Virus record (IMG/VR): IMGVR_UViG_3300000116_000135
Location: 204 to 29,165 of that record
DNA: 28,962 nucleotides
Direction: 5' to 3' (one strand)
Source: a virus
Made by a program: the position numbers and the translations under genes. The notes under the pieces were generated by a model. That model worked only from the letters and a program-made list of their open reading frames with translations, did no database searches and had not been told where the DNA came from. The stretch's first letter is position 1; each line of letters starts with the position of its first letter. This document shows positions 5,945-19,286 of the stretch, one piece after another.

Positions 5945-7646
5945 TACACCTTTATATACTGTACCAACAGATTATAAATCTGGTCTTTCAGATGTTCTAG
6001 CAGAATCTAAGAATATTTATGAGGCTAAAAAAGCACAGGGTTATATGACATACCCCGGCGCACAAATTGCTGGGTTCTCTCCTGAAGAACAAGCTGCAAT
6101 GACAGGTATTGCAGGTATGGTAGGTCAAGGGCAACAATACTTTGCACCTGCTGCTGGGCTATATGCTGGACAAGCACAGCAGTTTACTCCCCAGACTGCT
6201 CAACAGTATATGTCTCCTTACCAACAAGCTGTAGTAGATGTAGAAAAGCGTGAAGCAATCCGTCAATCACAACGTCCTATGCAAGACATTGGTAGTGCTG
6301 CTGTAACTGCAGGAGGCTTTGGTGGTTCTCGTCAAGCTATTCTTGAAGCAGAAGCAGGTCGTAATCTTCAAACACAACTTGGTAATATTCAAACTAAGGG
6401 ACAGCAAGCAGCATTTGAGAATGCACAGAAAGCTTTTGAAGCACAGAAGAAACGCGAACAAACAGCAGCTACAGGACTAGCAGGACTTGGAGTTACTGCT
6501 CCTCGTCAGCAGCTTACTGAACTTACTGCACTGTCTGGTATTGGTGAAGCACAACGTGGTATGACACAGCAAGGACTTGACCTTGCTTATCAAAACTTCC
6601 AACAGCAACAACAATTACCATATGACTTGCTTGGTCAATATCAAGCAACTCTTTATGGATATCCATATCAGTCTACTCAGCAGTATCAACCAAAGGCTCA
6701 AGCTTCTTCTGCACAAAATCTTGCAGGTATTCTTGGTGCAGGTGCTAAGATATTTGGAGGCGGTGGCTTTGGTTTTAATACTGGTGGTCGTGTAGCTTTC
6801 CAATCTAAGGGTGGATTGTCAGGTGCAATCCAAACTTTGTCTAATGGTATGATGGTAGGTAGTGGTGAAGACGTAACACCTGCGGGACAGGCAGAGGCTA
6901 AGAAAGACTATCTTAAAAATCTTTTAGAAGCTATGACAGGACAGTCACAGGCTACAAAAAAATATGGTGAAATGTCCACAGAAGTTATGGCTGAACAACA
7001 AAAACTAGCAGAAGAAAGACAGAAGAAACTAGAAGCTGCTTCTTCTCCTATGAATTATATTGGTGATTTGTTAATTGGTTATGCAGCAGCAGACCCTGAA
7101 ACAGGTCTTGGCGTACAGCTTGCGGGTGCAGCTACATATGCAGAGGAACAAAAACAAACTATACAAGATGAAATAACTAAAGTTCAATCAGAACTTTTAG
7201 AAGGAAGGCTTTCTCAAGCAGAAGCAGAAGTAAAACTTGGACAGCTTGGTGTTAAATCAGCCGCAGATTTGTATGATATTATGGGTCCGGCAGAAGCTGA
7301 GTTTCAACCTGAATCAGAGTTATTGAAAAAAATTGAAGCTTACTATTCACAAGGTTCTTTAGGTTTAACAGAAACAAAACAACAAATTCAATCTATCTTA
7401 GCTTCAGCTAAAGCAAGACTTCGTCAAGAAGTATTAGAAAATCCCAGTAAATATAAAGATAAATCTGCTGCTCAAGAAGTTAGAATTGCAGAAATTATAG
7501 ATGAAGAAGTTAAAAAATTATTAAATGCTAATAAAAAACCTGATTCTACAAAAGACCAGTCTAGTGTATCAGGAGCAATACAAAGTGGTTCTCAAGATAT
7601 AGATGATATTATAGCTAACGCAACACCATCTACTCAAGACGGTTAA
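5937..7646 (+). CDS. Internal virion/tail-associated protein
   Basis: A 569-residue protein. The N-terminal region (about 38-160) has YPGAQIAGFSPEEQAAMTGI, YMSPYQQAVVDV and SAAVTAGGFGGSRQ. This recurring set of short motifs is found in large podovirus proteins near the ejection proteins. Residues about 165-250 are Gln/Ala-rich helix. A Gly-rich hinge (about 262-285) leads to a mostly helical, charged C-terminal half with likely coiled coils (about 330-365 and 400-440). No catalytic motif is visible. Likely a virion protein ejected with DNA or lining the tail channel. The start at 5937 overlaps the previous gene by eight bases and is preceded by AAGGAG within that gene. Confidence 0.6.
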   Translation: MASTPLYTVPTDYKSGLSDVLAESKNIYEAKKAQGYMTYPGAQIAGFSPEEQAAMTGIAGMVGQGQQYFAPAAGLYAGQAQQFTPQTAQQYMSPYQQAVVDVEKREAIRQSQRPMQDIGSAAVTAGGFGGSRQAILEAEAGRNLQTQLGNIQTKGQQAAFENAQKAFEAQKKREQTAATGLAGLGVTAPRQQLTELTALSGIGEAQRGMTQQGLDLAYQNFQQQQQLPYDLLGQYQATLYGYPYQSTQQYQPKAQASSAQNLAGILGAGAKIFGGGGFGFNTGGRVAFQSKGGLSGAIQTLSNGMMVGSGEDVTPAGQAEAKKDYLKNLLEAMTGQSQATKKYGEMSTEVMAEQQKLAEERQKKLEAASSPMNYIGDLLIGYAAADPETGLGVQLAGAATYAEEQKQTIQDEITKVQSELLEGRLSQAEAEVKLGQLGVKSAADLYDIMGPAEAEFQPESELLKKIEAYYSQGSLGLTETKQQIQSILASAKARLRQEVLENPSKYKDKSAAQEVRIAEIIDEEVKKLLNANKKPDSTKDQSSVSGAIQSGSQDIDDIIANATPSTQDG

Positions 7647-7651
7647 TTAAA

Positions 7652-10600
7652 ATGACACTATCTTTTCAGTCTGACACATTTAGAACGGCTCGTAAATCTT
7701 TAGATGATATTGCATCTGAGAAAGGTACGGTTACGTCTGATGATATAATGAATGTTGTTAAACAATCAGGAGTTACATTAAAAGAATTTCAAGATGCTAA
7801 TAAAGATTTTAAATCTTTTAAGGGAAGATTTGAAACTGAAGAAGAAGCTTTAAAGTTTTTAGAACCTAGTGCTGCAGAACAATCATATTTTTTACCAGTA
7901 TCTCGTGCAGTTATTGAGGCTGGAGAAGGTGTAGCTAATTTAGCTGATACCGCTTTACGTTCAACTTTAAACAAAGAAACATATAAAGGTTTAAAAAAAT
8001 CTATTGAGGAAGCTAGTGATTATATTCCTGATAATGTTAAAAAAGCTTTAGATGCTACCTTTGACCCTTATCATGGTGAAGGTATTATAGGTGATATTAA
8101 TAGAGGTGCGGGAGAATTAGGTTCTTATTTTATTGGTGGTTATGGCGCAGCTAAACTTGGAAACAAACTTTTAACAAGCAATGCAGCAGCCCCTGCTGTT
8201 AGTAGACTTATGGGTAAGCTAGGAAGTAAATCTAAAACTGCTGTTAAAGGTGGAGCTTATGGTTTAGCTGGAGCAATAGGAACAACTGTTGTGGAAAATC
8301 CAAAACAAAATTCTGTTGATGCTATATATGCTTTGTTTGATGACGATGCAAAAAATAAATTAATTGAATATCAAAACAACCCAACAGACCCAGAACTTTC
8401 AGATTACTTTAATGCTTTGTTAAAAAATATTGCTTTTGAAGTTCCATTAGGTGCAAGTTTTTTTGGTGGTCCTACACTACTAACAGCTTTAGCAAAAAAA
8501 CATAGTGCAAGAATAGGTACTAGAATAAATAATGTAAGTACTAGGCTTGGTAAAATTACAGCACCTATTGGAAAAACTAAAGTAGGTAGAAAAGCAAAAC
8601 AATATTTTACATCTCGTATGGGTACAGATGATGCTACATTAGAAAGACTAATTAAAAGAGATGCTGCTTCTAAATCAGCCTTCTTTAAAGCTAATGGTTA
8701 TGCATCTGATTTAGAAACTTCTATTCAAAAAAATTTAAAACAACAGTTAAATAATAATCCTAACTATGCTGAAGAAGTAATTGATAAGGCTATGAAGGGT
8801 GATGCCGATGCTATGTCAAGACTTGCTTCAGATTCTGTAGAAACAGCAAACATTGTTAAAGGTATGAGACAGTCTATTGATAAACTTTCTAATAGACTTT
8901 CTAAAACACAAGGCATTAGTTCTAACTTATCTGCAACAATTGATAAAAATTTAGGAACTTATATGATACGTTCATATGAGTTTTTTGACAATCCTGAATA
9001 TAAAAAATTAATTCAGGAGCGTTTAAAGAAAAGACTTGTTAATCCTGCTGCGGTAGATGCAGAAGATACTGTGTTAAAAAATGCTGCAGAGTTTATTGCA
9101 AATAAAATGAACGTGCCTAGTACTGACCCTATTGTTCAAGATTCGTTAGAAAAAATAATTGGATTAGGAGCAGATGGTAAAAATGGATTTGCTGATTTCC
9201 TTGAACAAATTTCTAATAAACAATATATGTCTACTTCTGGAAAACCTTTGTTTAAAAGAAAAGAAATTCCTGTAGAAATGAGGGAGTTGTTTGGAGAAGT
9301 AAAAGACCCTTCTAAAAATTTTATTAAAACTTATGAAAAACTTTCTGTTCTTAATGCAGAGAATAAATTTTTAGAAGAAATGGCTGTGTCCTTAGAGTCT
9401 AAGTTTCAACAAAGAGTTAGAGATATACAGAAAGCCAATCCTACTTTTACTCCACAACGTGTAAATCAAATGGCAAAAGATACAATGGTAGATGTATCAA
9501 ATTCTCGTGACGATGTTTTAAAAGCTTTGGTAGGACAAAAACCTTTATCAAATAAAGCAATTAAAAATCCTTTACAAGGAGTTTACGCAGATGAAGAATA
9601 CGCTAAAGTATTAAGAAATGGTTTAGATATAGACATAGGAAACAATATGGTTTCTAAACTATTGAATGGTGCTGCTGCAGCTAAAGGTGTTTCTCAAAAA
9701 ATTAAGACTGTTTATAATCCAGCTACTCATGTTAAAAACGTAGTTGGAAACGTAGCTATGTTAGGTGCAAATGGTATGCTGCCTAAAGGTATGTCTGTAT
9801 CTAAAGCATTAGAAAGTTCTGCATCAGAACTTCTGGGTAAAAGTAATTCTAAACTGGGACAACAGCTTGCGGAATATTCTGACTTAGGTATTACAAATTC
9901 TAATATTGGATTAGGAGAAATAAGAAAAAACCTTTCTACCATTTCTAAAGATGTAGATGGATGGTTAAATAAAAGAGTTGCTGGCAAAGCAGTGGGTAAA
10001 ATAGACGATAAACTTACACAAATGTATCAAGCAGAAGATGACTTTTTTAAAATTGTTCACTTTGAACAAACACTTGATTATTTAAAAAAGGCTTATCCTG
10101 AAATAGCAGAACAAAATCTTAAACGAATGGCTGCTCAAAGAACTAGAGATATGATGCCTAACTATGGATTAGTTCCCAAAGCAATAAAAGCTTTACGTTA
10201 TTCTCCTGTTGGAGACTTTGTTGCTTTTCCTGCTGAGATGATAAGAACATCTAAAAATCTTGCAAAATATACAATACAAGATTTAGCTTCTGGAAATAAA
10301 GTTTTAGGAACTCAAGCAGCCAAAAGATTAGGAGGCATGACTGCTGTAGGTATGGCTCCTAGTGTTGCTGCTTTTTCTTCAAGATTAGTAAATGATATTG
10401 ATGGGGAACAGGCTGATGCTATAGATATGACTGGACCGTCATATGAAATAAACTCTGATAAAATTTATTTAAGTGGTGTAAATAAAGATAAGAACGGTCA
10501 TTTAGGAGTGGACTATGTCAACATAGGTGCGTATGACCCCTATATGTATTTAAAATCTTTTGCTAAAAATACACATGATTTGATTTTATCTGGTACTGGT

Positions 10601-11344
10601 ATGGACCCAGAAGCAACCTCGTTTGAATTTAATAAAACTGCGGTTGCTTTAGCAGACCAAACACTGTCTCCTTTTTTAGGAACTTCTATGTTGACAGATG
10701 CTTTTTTAGATTCACTGGGTGGTAAGACTGCAAGTGAAGCTACAGTTTCTCGTAAACTAGATAGCATTGGTGATACTATTCTTGATATAGGTGACCCTTT
10801 TATTTTAAAGTTTTTAGAAAAAAGAAAACAATATGAAACAAGTGGAAAGACAGACTACTATTCTTCTATTCCTGAAAGTGCAACAGAGTGGCCCGCCATC
10901 TTTGGTTTTAAAAAACAAAGAGCAGATTTTACTGCAGGTGCTAGATTTAATTTTAATCCTGCCTTTAATAAAATTACTAAAGCAAAGAATTTAATGAATG
11001 ATTCTTTAACTAAACCTAACGTAACAAGCCCTGAAGAAATATTTAAAGATTATAAAGATGTTCAAAGTGTAAGACTTGAGGGTTTTAGAGATATAAAAAG
11101 TATGGTAGAATTATATAGTGAATTAGGTATGGATGAAGCAGATATTATTAATGCTATATCTTTAGATGAAACATTACCACATATTAATAAAGATAGGGTA
11201 GGATTGTTAGAAGCTGCATCTAATAATATGTTTATACCTTATATGCCAAAAGAAACACCAGCTTTATTCAAAAATAAAACGCCAGTTCCTTGGAACGCAA
11301 TGATAGATTTATATGGCAAATTAGAAGGAAGAGAGATAGACTAA
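7652..11344 (+). CDS. Very large internal virion (ejection-type) protein
   Basis: At 1230 residues this is the largest gene in the window. It is mostly helical and Lys/Asp/Ser-rich, with several weakly hydrophobic Gly/Ala segments (about 148-165, 195-215 and 895-925) that could insert into or cross a membrane. Around residue 688 it has NPATHVKNVVGNVAMLGANG, a motif I associate with large phage internal proteins and polyvalent proteins. No lytic transglycosylase motif was found. By size and position, last among the big structural genes in the place of T7 gp15/gp16, it is likely part of the ejected channel. The DNA is more AT-rich than its neighbours. Its TAA shares a base with the next ATG. 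Confidence 0.6.
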   Translation: MTLSFQSDTFRTARKSLDDIASEKGTVTSDDIMNVVKQSGVTLKEFQDANKDFKSFKGRFETEEEALKFLEPSAAEQSYFLPVSRAVIEAGEGVANLADTALRSTLNKETYKGLKKSIEEASDYIPDNVKKALDATFDPYHGEGIIGDINRGAGELGSYFIGGYGAAKLGNKLLTSNAAAPAVSRLMGKLGSKSKTAVKGGAYGLAGAIGTTVVENPKQNSVDAIYALFDDDAKNKLIEYQNNPTDPELSDYFNALLKNIAFEVPLGASFFGGPTLLTALAKKHSARIGTRINNVSTRLGKITAPIGKTKVGRKAKQYFTSRMGTDDATLERLIKRDAASKSAFFKANGYASDLETSIQKNLKQQLNNNPNYAEEVIDKAMKGDADAMSRLASDSVETANIVKGMRQSIDKLSNRLSKTQGISSNLSATIDKNLGTYMIRSYEFFDNPEYKKLIQERLKKRLVNPAAVDAEDTVLKNAAEFIANKMNVPSTDPIVQDSLEKIIGLGADGKNGFADFLEQISNKQYMSTSGKPLFKRKEIPVEMRELFGEVKDPSKNFIKTYEKLSVLNAENKFLEEMAVSLESKFQQRVRDIQKANPTFTPQRVNQMAKDTMVDVSNSRDDVLKALVGQKPLSNKAIKNPLQGVYADEEYAKVLRNGLDIDIGNNMVSKLLNGAAAAKGVSQKIKTVYNPATHVKNVVGNVAMLGANGMLPKGMSVSKALESSASELLGKSNSKLGQQLAEYSDLGITNSNIGLGEIRKNLSTISKDVDGWLNKRVAGKAVGKIDDKLTQMYQAEDDFFKIVHFEQTLDYLKKAYPEIAEQNLKRMAAQRTRDMMPNYGLVPKAIKALRYSPVGDFVAFPAEMIRTSKNLAKYTIQDLASGNKVLGTQAAKRLGGMTAVGMAPSVAAFSSRLVNDIDGEQADAIDMTGPSYEINSDKIYLSGVNKDKNGHLGVDYVNIGAYDPYMYLKSFAKNTHDLILSGTGMDPEATSFEFNKTAVALADQTLSPFLGTSMLTDAFLDSLGGKTASEATVSRKLDSIGDTILDIGDPFILKFLEKRKQYETSGKTDYYSSIPESATEWPAIFGFKKQRADFTAGARFNFNPAFNKITKAKNLMNDSLTKPNVTSPEEIFKDYKDVQSVRLEGFRDIKSMVELYSELGMDEADIINAISLDETLPHINKDRVGLLEAASNNMFIPYMPKETPALFKNKTPVPWNAMIDLYGKLEGREID

Positions 11345-13265: not shown

Positions 13266-13652
13266 ATGTTAAACCTTCTAATAGGACCCATTGCGGAATT
13301 AGCAGGTACTTGGTTGAAAGGTTCTGTCGAAACATCAAAGGCAAAAACAGACGCAAAGGTAGCCCACGCCAAAGCTGAAGCTATTGTCATGCAGAAGAAG
13401 GCCACAGGTGAAATAGACTGGGACTTAAAGATGGCTGATGCTTCTGCATCCAGTTGGAAAGATGAATGGCTTACGTTAATTTTCTCAGCACCATTGATAC
13501 TTAGTTTCTGTGGGGATTGGGGCAGGACAATTGTAGCAGAGGGCTTTACAGCACTGTCTACTATGCCGGAGTGGTATCAGTATACACTAGGCGTCATTGT
13601 CGCTGCCAGCTTCGGCGTCCGTAGTGCTAGTAAATTCTTCGGTAAGAAGTAA
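13266..13652 (+). CDS. Three-helix holin-like protein (GTA holin family)
   Basis: A 128-residue membrane protein. The N-terminus (2-18, LNLLIGPIAELAGTWLKG) is hydrophobic or amphipathic. A charged helix (20-50) follows, then SSWKDEWLTLIFSAPLILSF (about 59-78) and a last membrane segment YQYTLGVIVAASFGVRS (about 103-119). This order, and the 'SWKDEWLTL...PLIL' block, match the 'holin of 3TMs' family first described in gene transfer agents of alphaproteobacteria. The ATG at 13266 has AGGAG seven bases upstream. With the gene at 12414 it gives two holin-like proteins in one cassette; they may be holin and antiholin. Its 3' end overlaps the opposite-strand small terminase gene by 66 bases. Confidence 0.65.
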   Translation: MLNLLIGPIAELAGTWLKGSVETSKAKTDAKVAHAKAEAIVMQKKATGEIDWDLKMADASASSWKDEWLTLIFSAPLILSFCGDWGRTIVAEGFTALSTMPEWYQYTLGVIVAASFGVRSASKFFGKK

Positions 13653-14108
13653 TTGTACTTCTTCTTCCTCTTGATATTCCTCTATATCTTCTTCAAACTT
13701 TTCGGGAAACGCTTCAGCAAGTAGTTCAAATACTTTCTCAAACCCTATCACCTGCATTGTATTTATAATCTCTGCTTCCAGAGTTTCAGATGTAGCATCC
13801 CCCTCATCTGAATTGTTACCCCGGACACGGCTCAGTAACTCAAGGGCTTTTAAAGCTACTGCTCCGTGTCCAGCGTTCCTAGCAGTTTCATACTGCTTCT
13901 CAATCTCTGAGATAACATCTACATCTGTGCTAATCTCATTGGTGAGTTCTTGGATTCTTTCTTGAATCCGTTCATCTTGTAGTAATCTGTACCCTTGATT
14001 GTGTGCAGATGCCTCGCTATATCCTGCTGCCACTGCAGCCCTCGTAGCATTACGGTGCAGGATATATGCTTGGCAGAACTTCTCTTGCTTTTCTTTAAGC
14101 TGCAACAT
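13587..14108 (-). CDS. terS: Terminase small subunit
   Basis: A 173-residue protein. The N-terminus LKEKQEKFCQAYILHRNATR followed by AAVAAGYS (about 4-32) is the helix-turn-helix signature of the Terminase_2 small-subunit family, which recognises the packaging site on phage DNA. A helical oligomerisation region follows (about 40-95). The C-terminal tail (about 135-173) is strikingly acidic, with runs of Glu/Asp, and may contact the large subunit or the portal. It starts at an ATG inside the 3' end of the tri-domain gene (14-base overlap). Unusually, it sits at the end of the minus-strand metabolic operon rather than beside a large subunit, and its 3' end runs 66 bases into the opposite-strand holin gene. 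Confidence 0.85.
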   Translation of the reverse strand: MLQLKEKQEKFCQAYILHRNATRAAVAAGYSEASAHNQGYRLLQDERIQERIQELTNEISTDVDVISEIEKQYETARNAGHGAVALKALELLSRVRGNNSDEGDATSETLEAEIINTMQVIGFEKVFELLAEAFPEKFEEDIEEYQEEEEVQLLLTEEFTSTTDAEAGSDNDA

Positions 14109-16410
14109 TCATTAACTCTTGGTAATACTTTTCTTGTCCACGCTTAGATTGTTTCCATACTGCTGCAGCTAATGTATCTTCTCCATAGAAGCAGATACCC
14201 ATATCCATTTGAACATCATCAAATAGTTTTTCACAGTCCTGTGCCATAGCCAGTAGTTCTCCTGTAGTCCAGAACTTAGTACCGCCTGTTTCTACTTGCA
14301 TATACTTAGGCCGGGTTTGTTCTGTATCTGTAGTTTCTTTTTTCATTTTTTCTGTTACTTTTCCAACAGAACAATCAAAGCCAAACAGTTCAAAGTTTCT
14401 AAAGCCTAATGTATGTGCAATTGCAATAGTACGCATAGCTGCACAAGTACCACCAGTGATGAGGGTAGACCCTTCTTCAATGCCTGTTGACTTATCTACT
14501 ACAATCTTATCTTTAATAGATAAATCACGCAAGGCATCTGAGTATGCTTGCCAACCTTTTATATTAGCACCCTTCTTAATAAGATACTTAGTAACTGAAG
14601 GGTCAGTCATAGAAGCAATAAGAAAGATAGTTTCTTTATCCACTTTCTTAAATAAATCTTTACGTTTAACACCATGTGTACTCACACCTTCGATAGGTCT
14701 AGGGTCTAAGATGACACAGGCAAAAGGTTGGATACCAGCTTCAATAAGTTTAGGATAGCTGTGCTTAACACAAAATACCTTGCTGTTAGTATTTTTAATA
14801 CGTTCTTTAAGAAGTTTAAAGTCTGTGGTGTTTCCTCCCGAAACAACAATGGCTGTCTCTGCATTAATTTTAGATGTCTTAATCCAGTCAAACTCTTTAA
14901 TAAGTTTTTTATTCTCCAACACATTATTAATAATCTCTTCCTTTGGTCTTGAATCTTTTGGTGTAACAACAATAGGTACACGTGTAAGTTCCTCTGGAAG
15001 TTTCTCCAAGTCTTTCTTCATAGAGACAAAGCATAGATGTGTTACACCACCGTCTTTTACTCCATCTGTAGATGGTAGTACAATCTTAGCAAAGGCTACT
15101 ATTTCTTTTATTAATACATTTACACCATCATTCTCAGGCATACGTCCTTGTTCATCCTTGGTAAAGTAATCATCGAATACAATGGCAGGAATGTGACGTA
15201 GGTTTTCAAAGTCTGACTTAACTGTTTCATATGAATGACCACCATCAATGTAAGCAAAGTCTGCCTCATTTATATCACTAGCTAGTGGTAATGTTTTCTT
15301 TGTGTCCCCCTTATGTAGTTCAAAGGTAAATGATTTACCTGACTTATGCATAACCTGTTGGAACTCAGACAACCTAAACTCTACAGCCTCTAACATATTA
15401 TGAGGCTTTGAGTTCAATTCAATGTGGTCTAGTTCTTCTGTAGCTTCTTCAAACAAATCAAAGCCAATGTAATGTACCTTATCTGTATGTTTAAATGCAG
15501 CCAAAGACATTTCAATTGCTCGTCCACCGTTCCAAGTACCTGTCTCAACAATAGTACTAGGCTTGTAGTGTTCTACAATCTTAGCCAACTGCTTGTAACG
15601 CTTTGGACCTGTAACATCAGGGGTTACTTTTGTCTTACTAAGTTCTTTCTTACGCTGTCCTTTGAAATGTTCAAAGTATTCAGACAAAGGAGACTGAGCA
15701 AATGCTGCTAGTCCTTTTACATTAGGAGAAAGGTTGTGTACCTCCATACCATGTGCTTTGTAGATATTAAGTAGGCGTTCAAAGATAAATCCATCATGCC
15801 ACTCACGATAAGCAACTACTTCACCAATAGTGTAAGCACCTCTAAGGTCAGCAAGGAGACTGCAAGTATTATGAACGCCCAAGTTAAAGCCCATGAAACT
15901 TGTTTCGCTATAGTCTGCATCTGTTCTTCCTAAGTGTACTAAGTCTGATGCATCTGGCAACCAGCTTTCTAATTGTTTAACATCAAGTCGTTTGGTTGCA
16001 ACGGTATCTGCGTCTAACCAAATCATCCAGTTATTTTCAGGTGGTTCTATACCTGCGGTAATATACTTATCATCTACATCCATCATTTCAAATGCAAGGT
16101 CAGTCATTGCATATACTTTATGACACCACTTGATTGCATCAAGCCGCCAATTGTACGCCATCTTACCGCCTTCAGTACCATCATGGAACTTCATACGCTC
16201 ACGGTATTCAAGCATCTCTGTTACATCGTTTAGATTCCTATAGCTAATAGTATCGCAAGTAGGGGGAGATAAATCCTCAAGAACGAAATCGTGATAATAC
16301 GCAATGAGTTTAAAATGTTCTGGGTTCCACTTCTCTTTAATACTTTCAAGCATATGCTTCGCATAACTGTGATAACCTTCCTCACTGAATGATGTTACAA
16401 ATGTATACAT
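14095..16410 (-). CDS. Tri-domain glycosyltransferase - methyltransferase - DUF115-like fusion
   Basis: A 771-residue protein. The ATG at 16410 shares a base with the upstream TAA; a longer in-frame start at 16467 is rejected because it lies inside the previous gene. Domain 1 (about 1-255) looks like a nucleotide-sugar glycosyltransferase, with a DxD metal/sugar motif (WLDADTV, D133 and D135) and FMGFNLGVHN (172-181). Domain 2 (about 265-465) looks like a class I methyltransferase: VETGTWNGGRA (288-298, SAM loop), FAYIDGGHSYETVKSDF (385-401) and FDDYF (412-416). Domain 3 (about 515-740) resembles DUF115/MptE/Maf proteins: AIVVSGGNT (520-528), GIQPFACVILDPRP (559-572) and TLGFRNFELFGFDCS (667-681). 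DUF115-type proteins include glycosyltransferases that modify flagellins. I infer a multi-step glycan-modifying enzyme; the substrate is unknown. Confidence 0.75.
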   Translation of the reverse strand: MYTFVTSFSEEGYHSYAKHMLESIKEKWNPEHFKLIAYYHDFVLEDLSPPTCDTISYRNLNDVTEMLEYRERMKFHDGTEGGKMAYNWRLDAIKWCHKVYAMTDLAFEMMDVDDKYITAGIEPPENNWMIWLDADTVATKRLDVKQLESWLPDASDLVHLGRTDADYSETSFMGFNLGVHNTCSLLADLRGAYTIGEVVAYREWHDGFIFERLLNIYKAHGMEVHNLSPNVKGLAAFAQSPLSEYFEHFKGQRKKELSKTKVTPDVTGPKRYKQLAKIVEHYKPSTIVETGTWNGGRAIEMSLAAFKHTDKVHYIGFDLFEEATEELDHIELNSKPHNMLEAVEFRLSEFQQVMHKSGKSFTFELHKGDTKKTLPLASDINEADFAYIDGGHSYETVKSDFENLRHIPAIVFDDYFTKDEQGRMPENDGVNVLIKEIVAFAKIVLPSTDGVKDGGVTHLCFVSMKKDLEKLPEELTRVPIVVTPKDSRPKEEIINNVLENKKLIKEFDWIKTSKINAETAIVVSGGNTTDFKLLKERIKNTNSKVFCVKHSYPKLIEAGIQPFACVILDPRPIEGVSTHGVKRKDLFKKVDKETIFLIASMTDPSVTKYLIKKGANIKGWQAYSDALRDLSIKDKIVVDKSTGIEEGSTLITGGTCAAMRTIAIAHTLGFRNFELFGFDCSVGKVTEKMKKETTDTEQTRPKYMQVETGGTKFWTTGELLAMAQDCEKLFDDVQMDMGICFYGEDTLAAAVWKQSKRGQEKYYQELMNVAA

Positions 16411-17186
16411 TAAAAAACCTCTCTTAAAATCTTGTCCATATAAATGGTACTGTGTAATGCTTGCCACTCACCAGCATAGCTGGCATCTGATGTTCGCTTT
16501 GGTTCCCAATCACTAAACCAAGGACCACCTGTTGTAAAGTGTACGTTCTTAGGTTTAATAATATCAGATGACCAACCATCCAACCAGTTCCATTCTTCGT
16601 TTATCCCACCAATGTCTTCATCCTTCAACCATTCAAAGCCGTGAAGCCATCTACCAGTTTTTACATTCACATCATCCACTGTTAGATTAAGGTTAGCAGG
16701 ATGTGAACAATTCCAAAGGACAAAACTAGACCAGTTCTTACGATTGTATTGTTGTTGTACCTGTCCATCCATCTTCACCTGTGCTGTTGGGTTGTAATTA
16801 TGTTTGACACATTGGATTGCGTACTCTTCGTTTCGTGTGTATTCTTCAAAGAACTCTTCGATGTCGGTACGCAAGAACATATCCGAATCCATAAATAAAG
16901 CCCAGCCATCGTACTGATTAAGGGCAGGTATGAGAAAACGTGTAAAAGTAAAGTCAGTACTGAAAGGTCTTCCATCGAACTCGTCTATCTTTACCCGCTT
17001 GTCATGCTGGACATCAATCCTAGCACTGCGGCGATACAAACCTGCTCTACGTAAGCCTGATTGTACAAGAGGAATGATGTCATATTTTGTGTTGTACTTA
17101 ATAATTGATTGACGTAATACTTCATATGCCTCTTCCTCTCTTTGGTCAAAGCCAATATATATTACTGGTCGCTTTGTTGTGAACAT
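16410..17186 (-). CDS. Glycosyltransferase, GT8-like fold
   Basis: A 258-residue protein that opens VIYIGFDQREEEAYEVLRQS (8-27), the N-terminal block of a glycosyltransferase family often seen in marine phages. A DxD motif (FMDSDMF, D100 and D102) would bind a divalent metal and the nucleotide sugar. FSTDFTFTRFLIP (75-87) and HFTTGGPW near residue 217 are further family-like blocks, the His probably completing the metal site. No signal peptide or membrane segment is seen, so it should act in the cytoplasm. Its ribosome-binding site AGGAG lies inside a long hairpin (17193-17238). It is coupled by TAATG to the tri-domain gene downstream, so the two probably act on the same substrate. Confidence 0.75.
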   Translation of the reverse strand: MFTTKRPVIYIGFDQREEEAYEVLRQSIIKYNTKYDIIPLVQSGLRRAGLYRRSARIDVQHDKRVKIDEFDGRPFSTDFTFTRFLIPALNQYDGWALFMDSDMFLRTDIEEFFEEYTRNEEYAIQCVKHNYNPTAQVKMDGQVQQQYNRKNWSSFVLWNCSHPANLNLTVDDVNVKTGRWLHGFEWLKDEDIGGINEEWNWLDGWSSDIIKPKNVHFTTGGPWFSDWEPKRTSDASYAGEWQALHSTIYMDKILREVF

Positions 17187-17253: not shown

Positions 17254-19221
17254 TTATGCTGCTGCTATGTCTACAATCTCACACACCCCTGCGGTACAAG
17301 CTAACTCTCTACCGCCTGATGTTGTGTCTTCTTTCTCAAAGTCTTGTAGCTTATTCCAATCAACATTCTTAGGCATCTTCTTAACCCACTCTTTGTAGGT
17401 GTCAGCATCAATGTCCTGATAGGGTGCTTGCTGGTATGTATGTTCGCTGAATGGTAAGAAGCTGATGCCACTCACCTCATCGAAATGTTTATACACCCAA
17501 GCACCTACATCTAGCCATTCCGATTCCTTCACTGAAATTGTTACGCTAGGCTTATGTTCGCACCAATGTCGTTGATATGTAAGCCACAACTCTAGCTGCT
17601 CAATGGCTGTCATACCTGTACGTGTTATTGCATTAGCAGGTGACTTCATAGGGAAGCTGAATACTGTTGTGCTGTCAGGCTTCGTTACATCAGGTTCTGA
17701 AGGAATACCTTGAGACATGAGGAACTGTGTTAGTGGGTCTTTGTTATCACCACGTACAGTACGAATGTAGTATGGGTTATGCCGTGCATGAATACCACTG
17801 GCTGCATCAGTAAGCTGAGACACAGTACCACTAGGCTTCACACAAGTAACAGCTACAGACTGTTGGATACCCAACTGCTTAGACATATCCTTGTTAGATT
17901 CAACAGATATAGAACGTAATAATTCAAGTATAGTTTCTAACTTACCACCTGCATTTGCAGTCAGTTCATTGTCCATAATACCTGTAAGTGAGACACCAAG
18001 TAGACGCTCTTCCTCTGTGTTCTTCTTCCAGATATTACGAATGTATTTAAAGTTAGTCAGTGTAGCTTGGAATGTACCAAGGATTGTAGCAAGGCGTACC
18101 TTTTCTTTTAGTGTTTCTGTTGTGTCATTCTCACGCACTACTACCTCTGACAAATTACAGAACTGGTATGGGCGTAAAATAATCTCACTGCAAGGGTTAC
18201 AACCGTAGTCATACTCCAATGGAAGTTTAGTCAGTGGGTGCTTCAATCCTGTATAAATATCGCGTCTACCATTCTTAGCTGCTTGTTTCTTAGCAGCCTC
18301 ACGATTAAAGATACCACGTTCACCTGACTTGCTTTCATATAGAGATGTCCACTCACGCATGAATGTACCCATCTCAGGTTTATATTTGTAGGCAACAGAG
18401 TTATTAGCTAAAGCACGTTGTCCTTCGTTTTCCCACCACTTACCTGACTTAGCATGAGCCATCTGGTCATCATTAAGATTAGACAGGCTGATAAGGGCTG
18501 AACGTCTTACACCACCTACAACTACAACCTCACCTATCTTACACATGATATCGTGGCATTCGATTGGGTAGAGCCTACGTCCTGCAGCACCCTTGAATTT
18601 CTCAATACAAAAGTCAAATAATTCAATAAGTGGTTGTGGTCCAGAGGCTCTACCACCAAAGGTCTTTAGCCTTGCACCTGCAGGGCGTACTTCGCTGACA
18701 TCGAATTTAGGAATTTGTCCAGTGTAAAGCATAGCAATCAATTCCTTCAATGACTTAGCCCATCCGGGGCGGCTGTCACCTACCTTGATTATTGTTTCTG
18801 TATTATGGAATGATTCATTAATAAAAGGAAGACACTCGACTGCACTTCGCTCAACAGAAAATCCAACACCTGTTCCACACATCAAGATGTACATTGTCTC
18901 ATCGAATGCACGTGGGTTATCAACTGGTACATAAGAACAGTTGTATCCACCCACATGGCAACGGTCAAGGGCTGGTCCACTGGTCATCAATGCCCTCATA
19001 GAAGGCATGATGTTTAGGGAAAGCACAGCTTCCTCAAGCTGCTTACGCAGCCCCTCGTCAAGAGAATAGCTATGCTTTTTCTTCAGATGGTCAGACATAT
19101 AATCAAAGTATCTGCCAACTGTTTCTGTCCAAGTCTCACGCCGTTGCTCGTCTTCTTTCCAACGTGCATAGCGGGACAAGGCAATAAAATTCTGGTAATC
19201 TGTAGGTAAAAAATTGTTCAT
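17254..19221 (-). CDS. nrdJ: Class II (B12-dependent) ribonucleotide reductase, monomeric
   Basis: A 655-residue enzyme that converts ribonucleotides to deoxyribonucleotides using adenosylcobalamin, feeding phage DNA synthesis. The key residues of the monomeric Lactobacillus-type enzyme are present: the thiyl-radical Cys C344 and its partner E346 in NPCSEIIL, the redox pair C95 (GYNCSY) and C355 (FCNLSEV), and a C-terminal shuttle pair C642/C647 (CTAGVC) with the usual spacing of five. GGVRRSALISLSNL (236-249) is another family block. The ATG at 19221 is chosen because AAAGGG lies just upstream; longer starts at 19236 and 19269 have no ribosome-binding site. No radical-generating small subunit is needed, and none is present. 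It depends on host cobalamin. Confidence 0.92.
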   Translation of the reverse strand: MNNFLPTDYQNFIALSRYARWKEDEQRRETWTETVGRYFDYMSDHLKKKHSYSLDEGLRKQLEEAVLSLNIMPSMRALMTSGPALDRCHVGGYNCSYVPVDNPRAFDETMYILMCGTGVGFSVERSAVECLPFINESFHNTETIIKVGDSRPGWAKSLKELIAMLYTGQIPKFDVSEVRPAGARLKTFGGRASGPQPLIELFDFCIEKFKGAAGRRLYPIECHDIMCKIGEVVVVGGVRRSALISLSNLNDDQMAHAKSGKWWENEGQRALANNSVAYKYKPEMGTFMREWTSLYESKSGERGIFNREAAKKQAAKNGRRDIYTGLKHPLTKLPLEYDYGCNPCSEIILRPYQFCNLSEVVVRENDTTETLKEKVRLATILGTFQATLTNFKYIRNIWKKNTEEERLLGVSLTGIMDNELTANAGGKLETILELLRSISVESNKDMSKQLGIQQSVAVTCVKPSGTVSQLTDAASGIHARHNPYYIRTVRGDNKDPLTQFLMSQGIPSEPDVTKPDSTTVFSFPMKSPANAITRTGMTAIEQLELWLTYQRHWCEHKPSVTISVKESEWLDVGAWVYKHFDEVSGISFLPFSEHTYQQAPYQDIDADTYKEWVKKMPKNVDWNKLQDFEKEDTTSGGRELACTAGVCEIVDIAAA

Positions 19222-19224
19222 AAA

Positions 19225-19286
19225 TAGCCCTTTCATTTTCAAGCGAACAAGAGAATAAGTGTAACACAAATGGGCTACAAGTACAA
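19225..19286 (-). promoter_or_regulatory. Possible promoter and ribosome-site hairpin before reductase
   Basis: The 69-base gap before the reductase holds two weak overlapping promoter matches on the minus strand: TTGTAC (19286-19281), 17 bases, TACACT (19263-19258); and TTGTAG (19280-19275), 17 bases, TATTCT (19257-19252). TAGCCC (19277-19272) can pair with GGGCTA (19230-19225), and three more A-T pairs form after a one-base bulge. The 3' arm is the AAAGGG ribosome-binding site. The layout repeats that of the glycosyltransferase gap, but every element is weaker. Confidence 0.3.

Follow-up and report, generated by a model that had tools for sequence, protein, structure and literature searches.

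On the minus strand of the viral DNA analysed here (the window, 28,962 nucleotides in full), one gene encodes a 771-aa fusion protein (14095–16410) in which a GT-A glycosyltransferase, an O-methyltransferase and an MptE/Maf-like transferase are predicted to follow one another. Together with the GT8-like glycosyltransferase encoded by the adjoining gene, this protein probably builds a methyl-capped sugar chain, the site of which is most likely the virus particle or the host surface. The basis for this two-gene module is sequence, conservation of fold and motifs, linkage of the parts by operon and by fusion, and purifying selection. The three-domain architecture is already present in database entries; a published description was not found in the literature searched.

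Reality of the open reading frame

The uninterrupted 771-codon frame claimed in an earlier sequence-only reading of this DNA stands, with the refinement that it runs on the minus strand (16410→14095); across the same interval the plus strand has stops throughout. The start is the ATG at 16410, and M1 is invariant across relatives. The motifs quoted in that reading are likewise all in place: D133/D135 (within WLDADT), ETGTWNGG (289–296) and IDGGHSYE (388–395), followed in domain 3 by GGNT (525–528), DPRP (569–572) and GFDCS (677–681). With dN/dS values of 0.10, 0.18 and 0.13 for domains 1, 2 and 3, the fusion protein is under purifying selection. Because 35 full-length relatives can be aligned and dN/dS is low, a chance fusion, a frameshift and an assembly artefact are ruled out.

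Predicted domain structure

Domain 1 (GTN; residues about 1–258, 15637–16410, minus strand) has no Pfam family, as a search with residues 1–255 matched none, the GT8 profile included. In VIA the whole-protein model was swamped by the methyltransferase domain, and domain 1 was therefore refolded alone. The resulting AF2 model (pLDDT 88.4, pTM 0.87) led to GT6/GT8 enzymes in Foldseek and to VIA Z scores of 13.7 for GlyE and 13.6 for domain 1 of PBCV-1 A64R (2p6w), and on this model domain 1 is predicted to be a GT-A fold. Both aspartates of the DxD metal motif, D133-A-D135 (16006–16014, minus strand), are invariant in 177/177 distinct relatives, as are H248 and G251 of a His-x-Lys-Gly motif, the K250 of which is kept in 176/177. 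Relatives of this domain exist as stand-alone proteins in Mosig-like phages. PDB sequence-profile searches with each of the three domains as query gave nothing usable; weak matches to a CBS domain, AbiGII and Tako8 were dismissed as chance.

Domain 2 (residues 264–475; 14986–15621, minus strand), assigned by PF13578 and fold, is predicted to be a sugar O-methyltransferase of the TylF/SpnH type. Pfam Methyltransf_24 (PF13578) matches residues 288–407 with 41.8 bits against a cut-off of 26.3, and TylF (PF05711) stays below its cut-off (18.2 vs 23 bits). VIA Z scores of 14.5–15.3 were obtained to MycF, CalS11 and SpnH. In the metal/SAM-site motif D389-G-G-H392 (15235–15246, minus strand) the aspartate is present in 112/113 and the histidine in 110/113 sequences, the exceptions being L007–L009 and L271, and the metal ligands D413-D414 (15169–15174, minus strand) are present in 111/113 and 110/113. 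In the sublineage L007–L009 the methyltransferase segment alone has been exchanged, almost exactly at the domain borders.

Domain 3 (residues 480–771; 14098–14973, minus strand) was assigned to the MptE-like family PF01973 (formerly DUF115) by profile and fold. The Pfam match covers residues 493–682 with 51.3 bits against a cut-off of 34.6, and the family is above cut-off in 8/8 related records. D569-P-R571 (14698–14706, minus strand) is conserved in 90/90 sequences, as is D679 of the GFDCS motif (677–681; 14368–14382, minus strand). The top Foldseek match, Maf 5mu5, spans residues 251–755 at an rmsd of 13.5 from a model with a pTM of 0.41, and NCBIfam PseD (NF050051) is matched at E 4.5e-8, yet with 32.2 bits against a curated cut-off of 670. 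A scan with a divergent C-domain query returned close family members only. On the whole-protein model, VIA places residues 482–743 on M. jannaschii HPPK 8sd5 (Z 15.3, rmsd 3.3, 198 aligned residues), so that the predicted fold is of the HPPK type; this fold fits domain 3 as cleanly as Maf does. Profile, fold and motif conservation thus bear out all three assignments of the sequence-only reading, domain 1 without a Pfam family, and the fold matches are to sugar-nucleotide- and SAM-dependent enzymes, so the folds give no sign that either pocket is missing.

Two other readings of these domains need to be weighed. Domain 3 might work as the diphosphokinase of archaeal MptE (HPPK) does and supply an activated precursor instead of transferring a sugar, as the VIA match and the MptE name of its Pfam family would suggest. 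However, in each context inspected the surroundings were a glycan cassette or a phage head/replication block and no pterin gene was seen, a GT29 sialyltransferase-like gene substitutes for domain 3 in phages with a GT-MT fusion, and domain 3 resembles PseD; we consider a kinase role very improbable. Slightly less remote, although still improbable, is a methyltransferase whose substrate is a protein or small molecule and whose fusion serves co-expression only. The metal ligands are missing from just two lineages, in which the other domains are retained, and COMT/TrmR folds match domain 2 with scores as high as those of the sugar methyltransferases. Against this, the fusion to glycosyltransferases has arisen repeatedly and independently, in both orders, and the highest sequence identity among the structure matches (23–24%) is to SpnH, a rhamnosyl-4'-O-methyltransferase.

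Gene neighbourhood and recurrence of the parts

The partner gene (16410–17186, minus strand) encodes the 258-aa GT8-like glycosyltransferase (phrog_28018, 3e-52; PF01501 weak, 0.0052), and its last base doubles as the first of the fusion gene, a 1-base overlap. GT8-like homologues occur in Mosig, cyanophage and Caulobacter phages. Downstream, the gene for the terminase small subunit, TerS (13587–14108, minus strand; phrog_51, 6e-22), overlaps the last bases of the fusion gene and stands beside it in 79/80 relatives (best 80 of 301). The upstream neighbour, ribonucleotide reductase (RNR; 17254–19269, minus strand), recognized by synteny and from its inspected translation, lies outside the glycan module. 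The order RNR–GT8-like–fusion–TerS is found in all of the best 80 loci that have a sufficiently long contig, which upholds the earlier description of a two-gene glycan unit placed between nucleotide metabolism and packaging.

Phage glycosyltransferases are usually recorded singly, as accessory LPS- or DNA-modification genes. In the present case these parts are joined to one another in all fusion combinations and belong to the core of a lineage that a public virus collection records at over 300 places. Relatives of the fusion protein are encoded by at least 301 IMG/VR stretches, and the best 80 of these 301 matches are full length with 64–82% identity. Both Pfam calls (Methyltransf_24 and MptE-like) are made in 35/35 aligned relatives, and the three-domain join is present in every relative examined of this uncultured aquatic phage lineage. 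One related phage contig falls within a Sneathiella bin. Phages as a group have the GT8-like, GT-A, methyltransferase and MptE-like parts both as single genes and joined pairwise in every combination: GT-MT in 14 ORFs, MT-C in 5 and GT-C in 3, beside 143 with GT-MT-C. Separate genes are seen in L218 and L239, and adjacent GT and MT genes in L192–L194; in the GT-MT phages a GT29 sialyltransferase-like gene fills the place of domain 3. On alphaproteobacterial chromosomes there are MT–GT fusions of reversed order. Scanning bacterial genomes gave no match with the close-family alignment and five with a broader one. For domains 2 and 3, tblastn gave no usable relative among 50,697 phage records. 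In L218, and in 16 distinct contigs that also carry TPR-protein genes, the major capsid gene directly precedes the cassette; L227 has it between TerL and portal, and a matching TerL or portal was seen in L238, L226 and L281. By these sequence comparisons the parts are a recurring and widespread cassette, and the fusion protein is a compressed form of it, not peculiar to this phage. The coupling of sugar transfer with methylation, proposed from the sequence alone, is strongly supported by the independent fusions in other combinations and orders.

Comparison with known systems

The closest functional parallel of the proposed two-gene module is A064R of the chlorovirus PBCV-1, a 638-aa protein consisting of two Rha-transferases and a methyltransferase that serves the capsid glycan (PMC9614988). 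A064R and the fusion protein are both virus-encoded, soluble three-domain proteins with a GT-A domain, a second glycosyltransferase and a methyltransferase, and domain 1 of A064R ranks with the best structural matches found for domain 1 here. However, A064R belongs to a virus of eukaryotic algae, its order is GT-GT-MT rather than GT-MT-MptE/Maf-like, and its second transferase comes from another family; its activity and capsid target are demonstrated, whereas those of the phage protein are predictions. Domain 3 shares PF01973 and the conserved GG, DPR and GFD motifs with the Maf/PseD flagellin nonulosonic-acid transferases (5mu5 is from Magnetospirillum), but scores under the curated PseD cut-off and is fused to a glycosyltransferase and a methyltransferase, without flagellin. 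Similarly, domain 2 has the fold, metal triad and SAM loop of the TylF-type enzymes SpnH, MycF and CalS11 of macrolide and enediyne pathways, but misses the TylF Pfam cut-off and sits between two transferase domains.

In Pelagibacter phage Mosig EXVC030M, the cluster Mosig_00183–00191 has a domain 1 homologue (26%) adjacent to a homologue of the GT8-like protein (40%), with a methyltransferase next to them. In contrast to the fusion, these are separate genes, the methyltransferase is FkbM instead of TylF-type, there is an extra sulfotransferase, and an MptE-like domain was not found. Apparently the same three-domain protein is A0A6J7X5Q0 (BFVD, 714 aa), from an uncultured Caudovirales phage, which is 33% identical over the full length; it is annotated only as "Methyltransferase domain containing protein", with no functional description. 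Nothing relevant came from literature searches on phage proteins of the DUF115 or MptE-like kind, and those on phage virion glycosylation did not describe the GT-MT-MptE-like architecture, so the domain order exists as a database entry without a published account that we found.

Proposed function and acceptor of the glycan

As the best explanation, to which we give an even chance, we propose a cytoplasmic two-gene module, made up of the fusion protein and its GT8-like partner, that builds a short methyl-capped glycan, with a phage structural protein as the most likely carrier. Assembly of a glycan with methylation is highly probable; a virion protein as acceptor falls a little short of even. 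The donors would be SAM and host sugar nucleotides, the latter because no NDP-sugar epimerase was detected across eight related phage records, a weak absence as these are incomplete or linear. The GT8-like protein and domain 1 would add sugars, domain 2 would O-methylate one of them, and domain 3, being Maf/sialyltransferase-like, would transfer a further sugar or link the glycan to its acceptor, presumably in this order. The parallel with the product of A064R points to a structural protein as carrier, and the position of the cassette in relatives, directly downstream of the major capsid gene or flanked by TerL and portal, favours virion proteins over the host envelope. Counter to a virion target, the unit in this window sits between replication/nucleotide genes and TerS rather than next to the capsid gene; the glycosyltransferase pair of Mosig-like myophages is distant from head genes; and the product of the alphaproteobacterial chromosomal fusions cannot be a virion.

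The main competitor is modification of a glycan of the host surface, be it LPS core/O-chain or exopolysaccharide, at the cytoplasmic side of the membrane, which would hide the infected cell from competing phages or keep progeny from being caught on debris. We regard it as a serious possibility, somewhat less likely than the virion. GT8 enzymes commonly serve LPS synthesis, the Mosig GT-A/GT8 pair adjoins FkbM methyltransferases and a sulfotransferase, alphaproteobacterial chromosomes carry GT-MT fusions, and the exchange of the methyltransferase segment inside one gene, together with two inactivations, is as expected of a variable surface antigen. However, no membrane partner or flippase was noticed and no epimerase found in the lineage, and the cassette lies within the head/packaging block of several unrelated phage groups. 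TPR-type glycosyltransferases, moreover, are associated with protein glycosylation. The same holds for Maf/PseD relatives (PMC11339370). In favour of the host surface, modification of the O-chain through phage GT8 genes was inferred by authors working on SAR11 myophages (PMC7029224). Phage DNA as the acceptor, the transferases glycosylating and methylating a modified base, is the most unlikely of the readings, even though genes for nucleotide metabolism and terminase lie nearby. A precedent exists in T4-like phages, which glycosylate their DNA. However, the thymidylate synthase/hydroxymethylase family is absent from the same eight incomplete or linear records, with a positive control search; in relatives the cassette comes after an MCP or TerL gene and includes TPR/GT29 proteins; and the fold of domain 2 is that of a sugar O-methyltransferase. 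A Tet/JBP search gave no match and its control was equally silent, so it is uninformative.

More broadly, and tentatively, tailed phages may have a recombining cassette of modular build (GT8-like, GT-A, TylF-type methyltransferase, Maf/sialyltransferase-like and sometimes a glycosyltransferase-type TPR protein) with which they attach a methyl-capped glycan to head or tail proteins of their own; the fusion protein would be its most compressed form and an independently arisen bacteriophage counterpart of A064R. If the product is indeed on virions, methylated glycans would coat some common aquatic phages and alter recognition, persistence and adsorption, and an algal giant virus and phages would have arrived at the same multi-domain solution. 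If it is on the host, the two genes would form a compact surface-conversion system.

Fusion gene and domain folds

The fusion gene runs on the minus strand from an ATG at 16410 to a stop at 14095 and encodes 771 residues in a single open frame; the uninterrupted 771-codon frame read at 14095–16410 from the sequence alone is thus present, with its strand now given as minus. The start in a mechanical ORF list is the GTG at position 16467; alignments with relatives begin at the ATG at 16410, and M1 is invariant. Upstream, the GT8-like glycosyltransferase gene (16410–17186, minus strand) shares one base with the fusion gene, and the gene for the terminase small subunit (TerS; 13587–14108, minus strand) overlaps its end. 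These overlaps suggest translational coupling of the three genes. The source virus record, of 29,165 bases, is apparently a fragment. Its nearest cultured phages by DNA polymerase are the Pelagibacter phages HTVC103P, HTVC104P and HTVC115P (46–47%), and the compared 50 kb of HTVC104P contain no relatives of the GT8-like, fusion, ribonucleotide reductase (RNR) or TerS genes. A 1230-aa frame at 7652–11344 lies within the structural block, and its counterpart in the related locus L087 matches the virion structural protein family phrog_22602.

Pfam identifies Methyltransf_24 and MptE-like (PF01973, formerly DUF115) domains, each over its curated cut-off, confirming the methyltransferase and DUF115/Maf-like assignments of the sequence-only reading; it gives no match within the first 255 residues. 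The glycosyltransferase proposed for that N-terminal region is borne out by a model of domain 1 alone (56 sequences, down to 22–30% identity; pLDDT 88.4, pTM 0.87), in which the predicted fold is GT-A. Foldseek matches to domain 1 include GT6 α-1,3-galactosyltransferases and the GT8 xylosyltransferase XXYLT1, and structure comparison with VIA lists GlyE (Z 13.7), domain 1 of chlorovirus PBCV-1 A64R (2p6w, Z 13.6), BoGT6a, LARGE1, glycogenin and WbbM, all tied within 1 Z. The full-length AlphaFold2 model, from 35 sequences (pLDDT 74.5, pTM 0.41), is usable for individual domains and unreliable for their arrangement and packing. Its domain 2 matches SpnH, MycF, CalS11, COMT and TrmR (Z 14–16), and its domain 3 matches Methanocaldococcus jannaschii MptE/HPPK (8sd5; Z 15.3, rmsd 3.3, 198 residues). 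The top Foldseek match of the full-length model is the Maf transferase 5mu5.

Conservation and domain exchange

The best 80 of 301 IMG/VR matches to the fusion protein are 64–82% identical and either full length or cut by contig ends alone, and every sufficiently long locus among them keeps the order RNR–GT8–fusion–TerS–holin. Median dN/dS is 0.10, 0.18 and 0.13 in the glycosyltransferase (GT), methyltransferase (MT) and MptE/Maf-like (C) domains, respectively. Across all architectures, D133, D135, D206, H248 and G251 are invariant in 177 distinct GT domains, E289, G291 and D318 in 113 MT domains, and G526, D569-P-R571, G653-G654 and D679 in 90 C domains. Among the 113 MT domains, the metal residues are missing from two lineages only: L007–L009 (DGGN, NN) and L271 (5111–7393; GGGN, FDH), a second, independent loss in an otherwise intact three-domain protein. 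At L050 (6001–8211), ~27 residues of the C domain, including the DPRP motif, are deleted in frame, through either natural variation or misassembly.

In L007 (6001–8304), L008 and L009, a diverged MT segment (residues ~235–480) is flanked by GT and C domains 97–99% identical in protein sequence to those of L003. Nucleotide identity between L007 and L003 is 92–100%, drops to 64–84% only at residues ~235–480 and then returns to 93–100%, and dS is 0.19, 1.22 and 0.13 in GT, MT and C. The MT segment was therefore swapped almost exactly at the domain borders, most simply by recombination.

A cassette with shuffled fusions

Widened searches (best 80 kept per search), with all ORFs scored by local profiles and overlapping loci of one contig counted more than once, gave 143 GT–MT–C, 14 GT–MT, 5 MT–C and 3 GT–C fusions. 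The triple fusions form one clade (support 0.99 in the MT tree and 0.92 in the C-domain tree), with the other fusions outside it. Phages L218 and L239 carry the parts as separate genes, L192–L194 have GT and MT as neighboring genes, and nearly all of these architectures come with the GT8-like gene. Near the stand-alone GT domain of T4-like Mosig relatives, a GT8-like homolog occurs in 76 of 80 loci and an FkbM methyltransferase match in 42. Within bacterial genomes we found two phage contigs, L280 and L281, from Sneathiella and Myxococcales bins; L280 has the same synteny as the window. Three alphaproteobacterial chromosome contigs were also found, with a GT–MT fusion in L282 and reversed MT–GT fusions, apparently outside prophages, in L283 (1396–2892, Rhodospirillaceae MAG) and L284 (5992–7485, MarineAlpha3). 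That fusions arose repeatedly and in different orders strongly supports a single pathway for sugar transfer and methylation.

The cassette lies between RNR and TerS in the window lineage, near nrdA/nrdB in Mosig and between the terminase large subunit (TerL) and portal in L227, with the last arrangement recurring, whole or in part, in L238, L226 and, by inspection, L281. Sixteen distinct contigs have the order major capsid protein–TPR protein–(GT29 sialyltransferase-like)–GT(–)MT–GT8-like, and in most of them connector or virion structural genes come next; the TPR protein may, by resemblance, be a transferase. L218 is ordered major capsid–two MptE-like genes–GT8–GT–MT–tail gene. Small GT29-like proteins with a GHGPS motif occur in the phage cassettes of L195 (2604–3281), L205–L206, L214–L217, L219–L223, L228 and L234. 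In one capsid-linked phage (L193, 4534–5472) the cassette includes a radical SAM/SPASM protein, and by eye a similar protein is present in L281 (3994–4935), of the TerL–portal type. The L238 cassette has its own GDP-mannose 4,6-dehydratase and cytidylyltransferase-like genes (9086–10075 and 7157–7603), which suggests a deoxyhexose donor.

Proposed function and acceptor

The domain families are known individually, but nowhere in the literature searched did we find the three-domain protein, the cassette or its fusions described, and tblastn gave no usable relative of domains 2 and 3 among 50,697 phage records. The fusion protein is probably a virus-encoded glycan-building enzyme. The established parallel for its mechanism is PBCV-1 A064R, a three-domain protein that is soluble and expressed early, has the order GT–GT–methyltransferase and assembles the methylated terminus of the capsid glycan (PMC9614988); the fusion protein is ordered GT–MT–C. 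In the likeliest scheme, sugars taken from host nucleotide sugars would be added by the GT8-like protein and domain 1, one of these sugars would receive a methyl cap from domain 2, and domain 3 would form a sialyltransferase/Maf-type linkage. For domain 3, sugar transfer is favored over a diphosphokinase role because a GT29-like gene takes the place of the C domain in GT–MT phages.

Because no epimerase was found in the lineage's possibly incomplete records, a host supply of the sugars is expected. These records likewise yielded no member of the thymidylate synthase/hydroxymethylase family, which makes DNA an unlikely acceptor. Modification of the host O-chain is the established alternative; GT8 genes of SAR11 myophages have been assigned this role by inference (PMC7029224). 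The adjacency of the cassette to head genes in several phage groups, together with the Maf relationship, tilts the balance only slightly toward virion proteins as the acceptor.

Among relatives of the lineage, a C5-cytosine DNA methyltransferase is absent from some and present in others (G005:C1:25277-26107, G007 and G008). A full-length relative of the fusion protein at 33% (A0A6J7X5Q0, BFVD) is annotated as a methyltransferase only, and phrog_2675, labelled 'DNA methyltransferase', matches through its own positions 299–461 the sugar-type Methyltransf_24 domain of the fusion protein, so that its label is possibly a misannotation.
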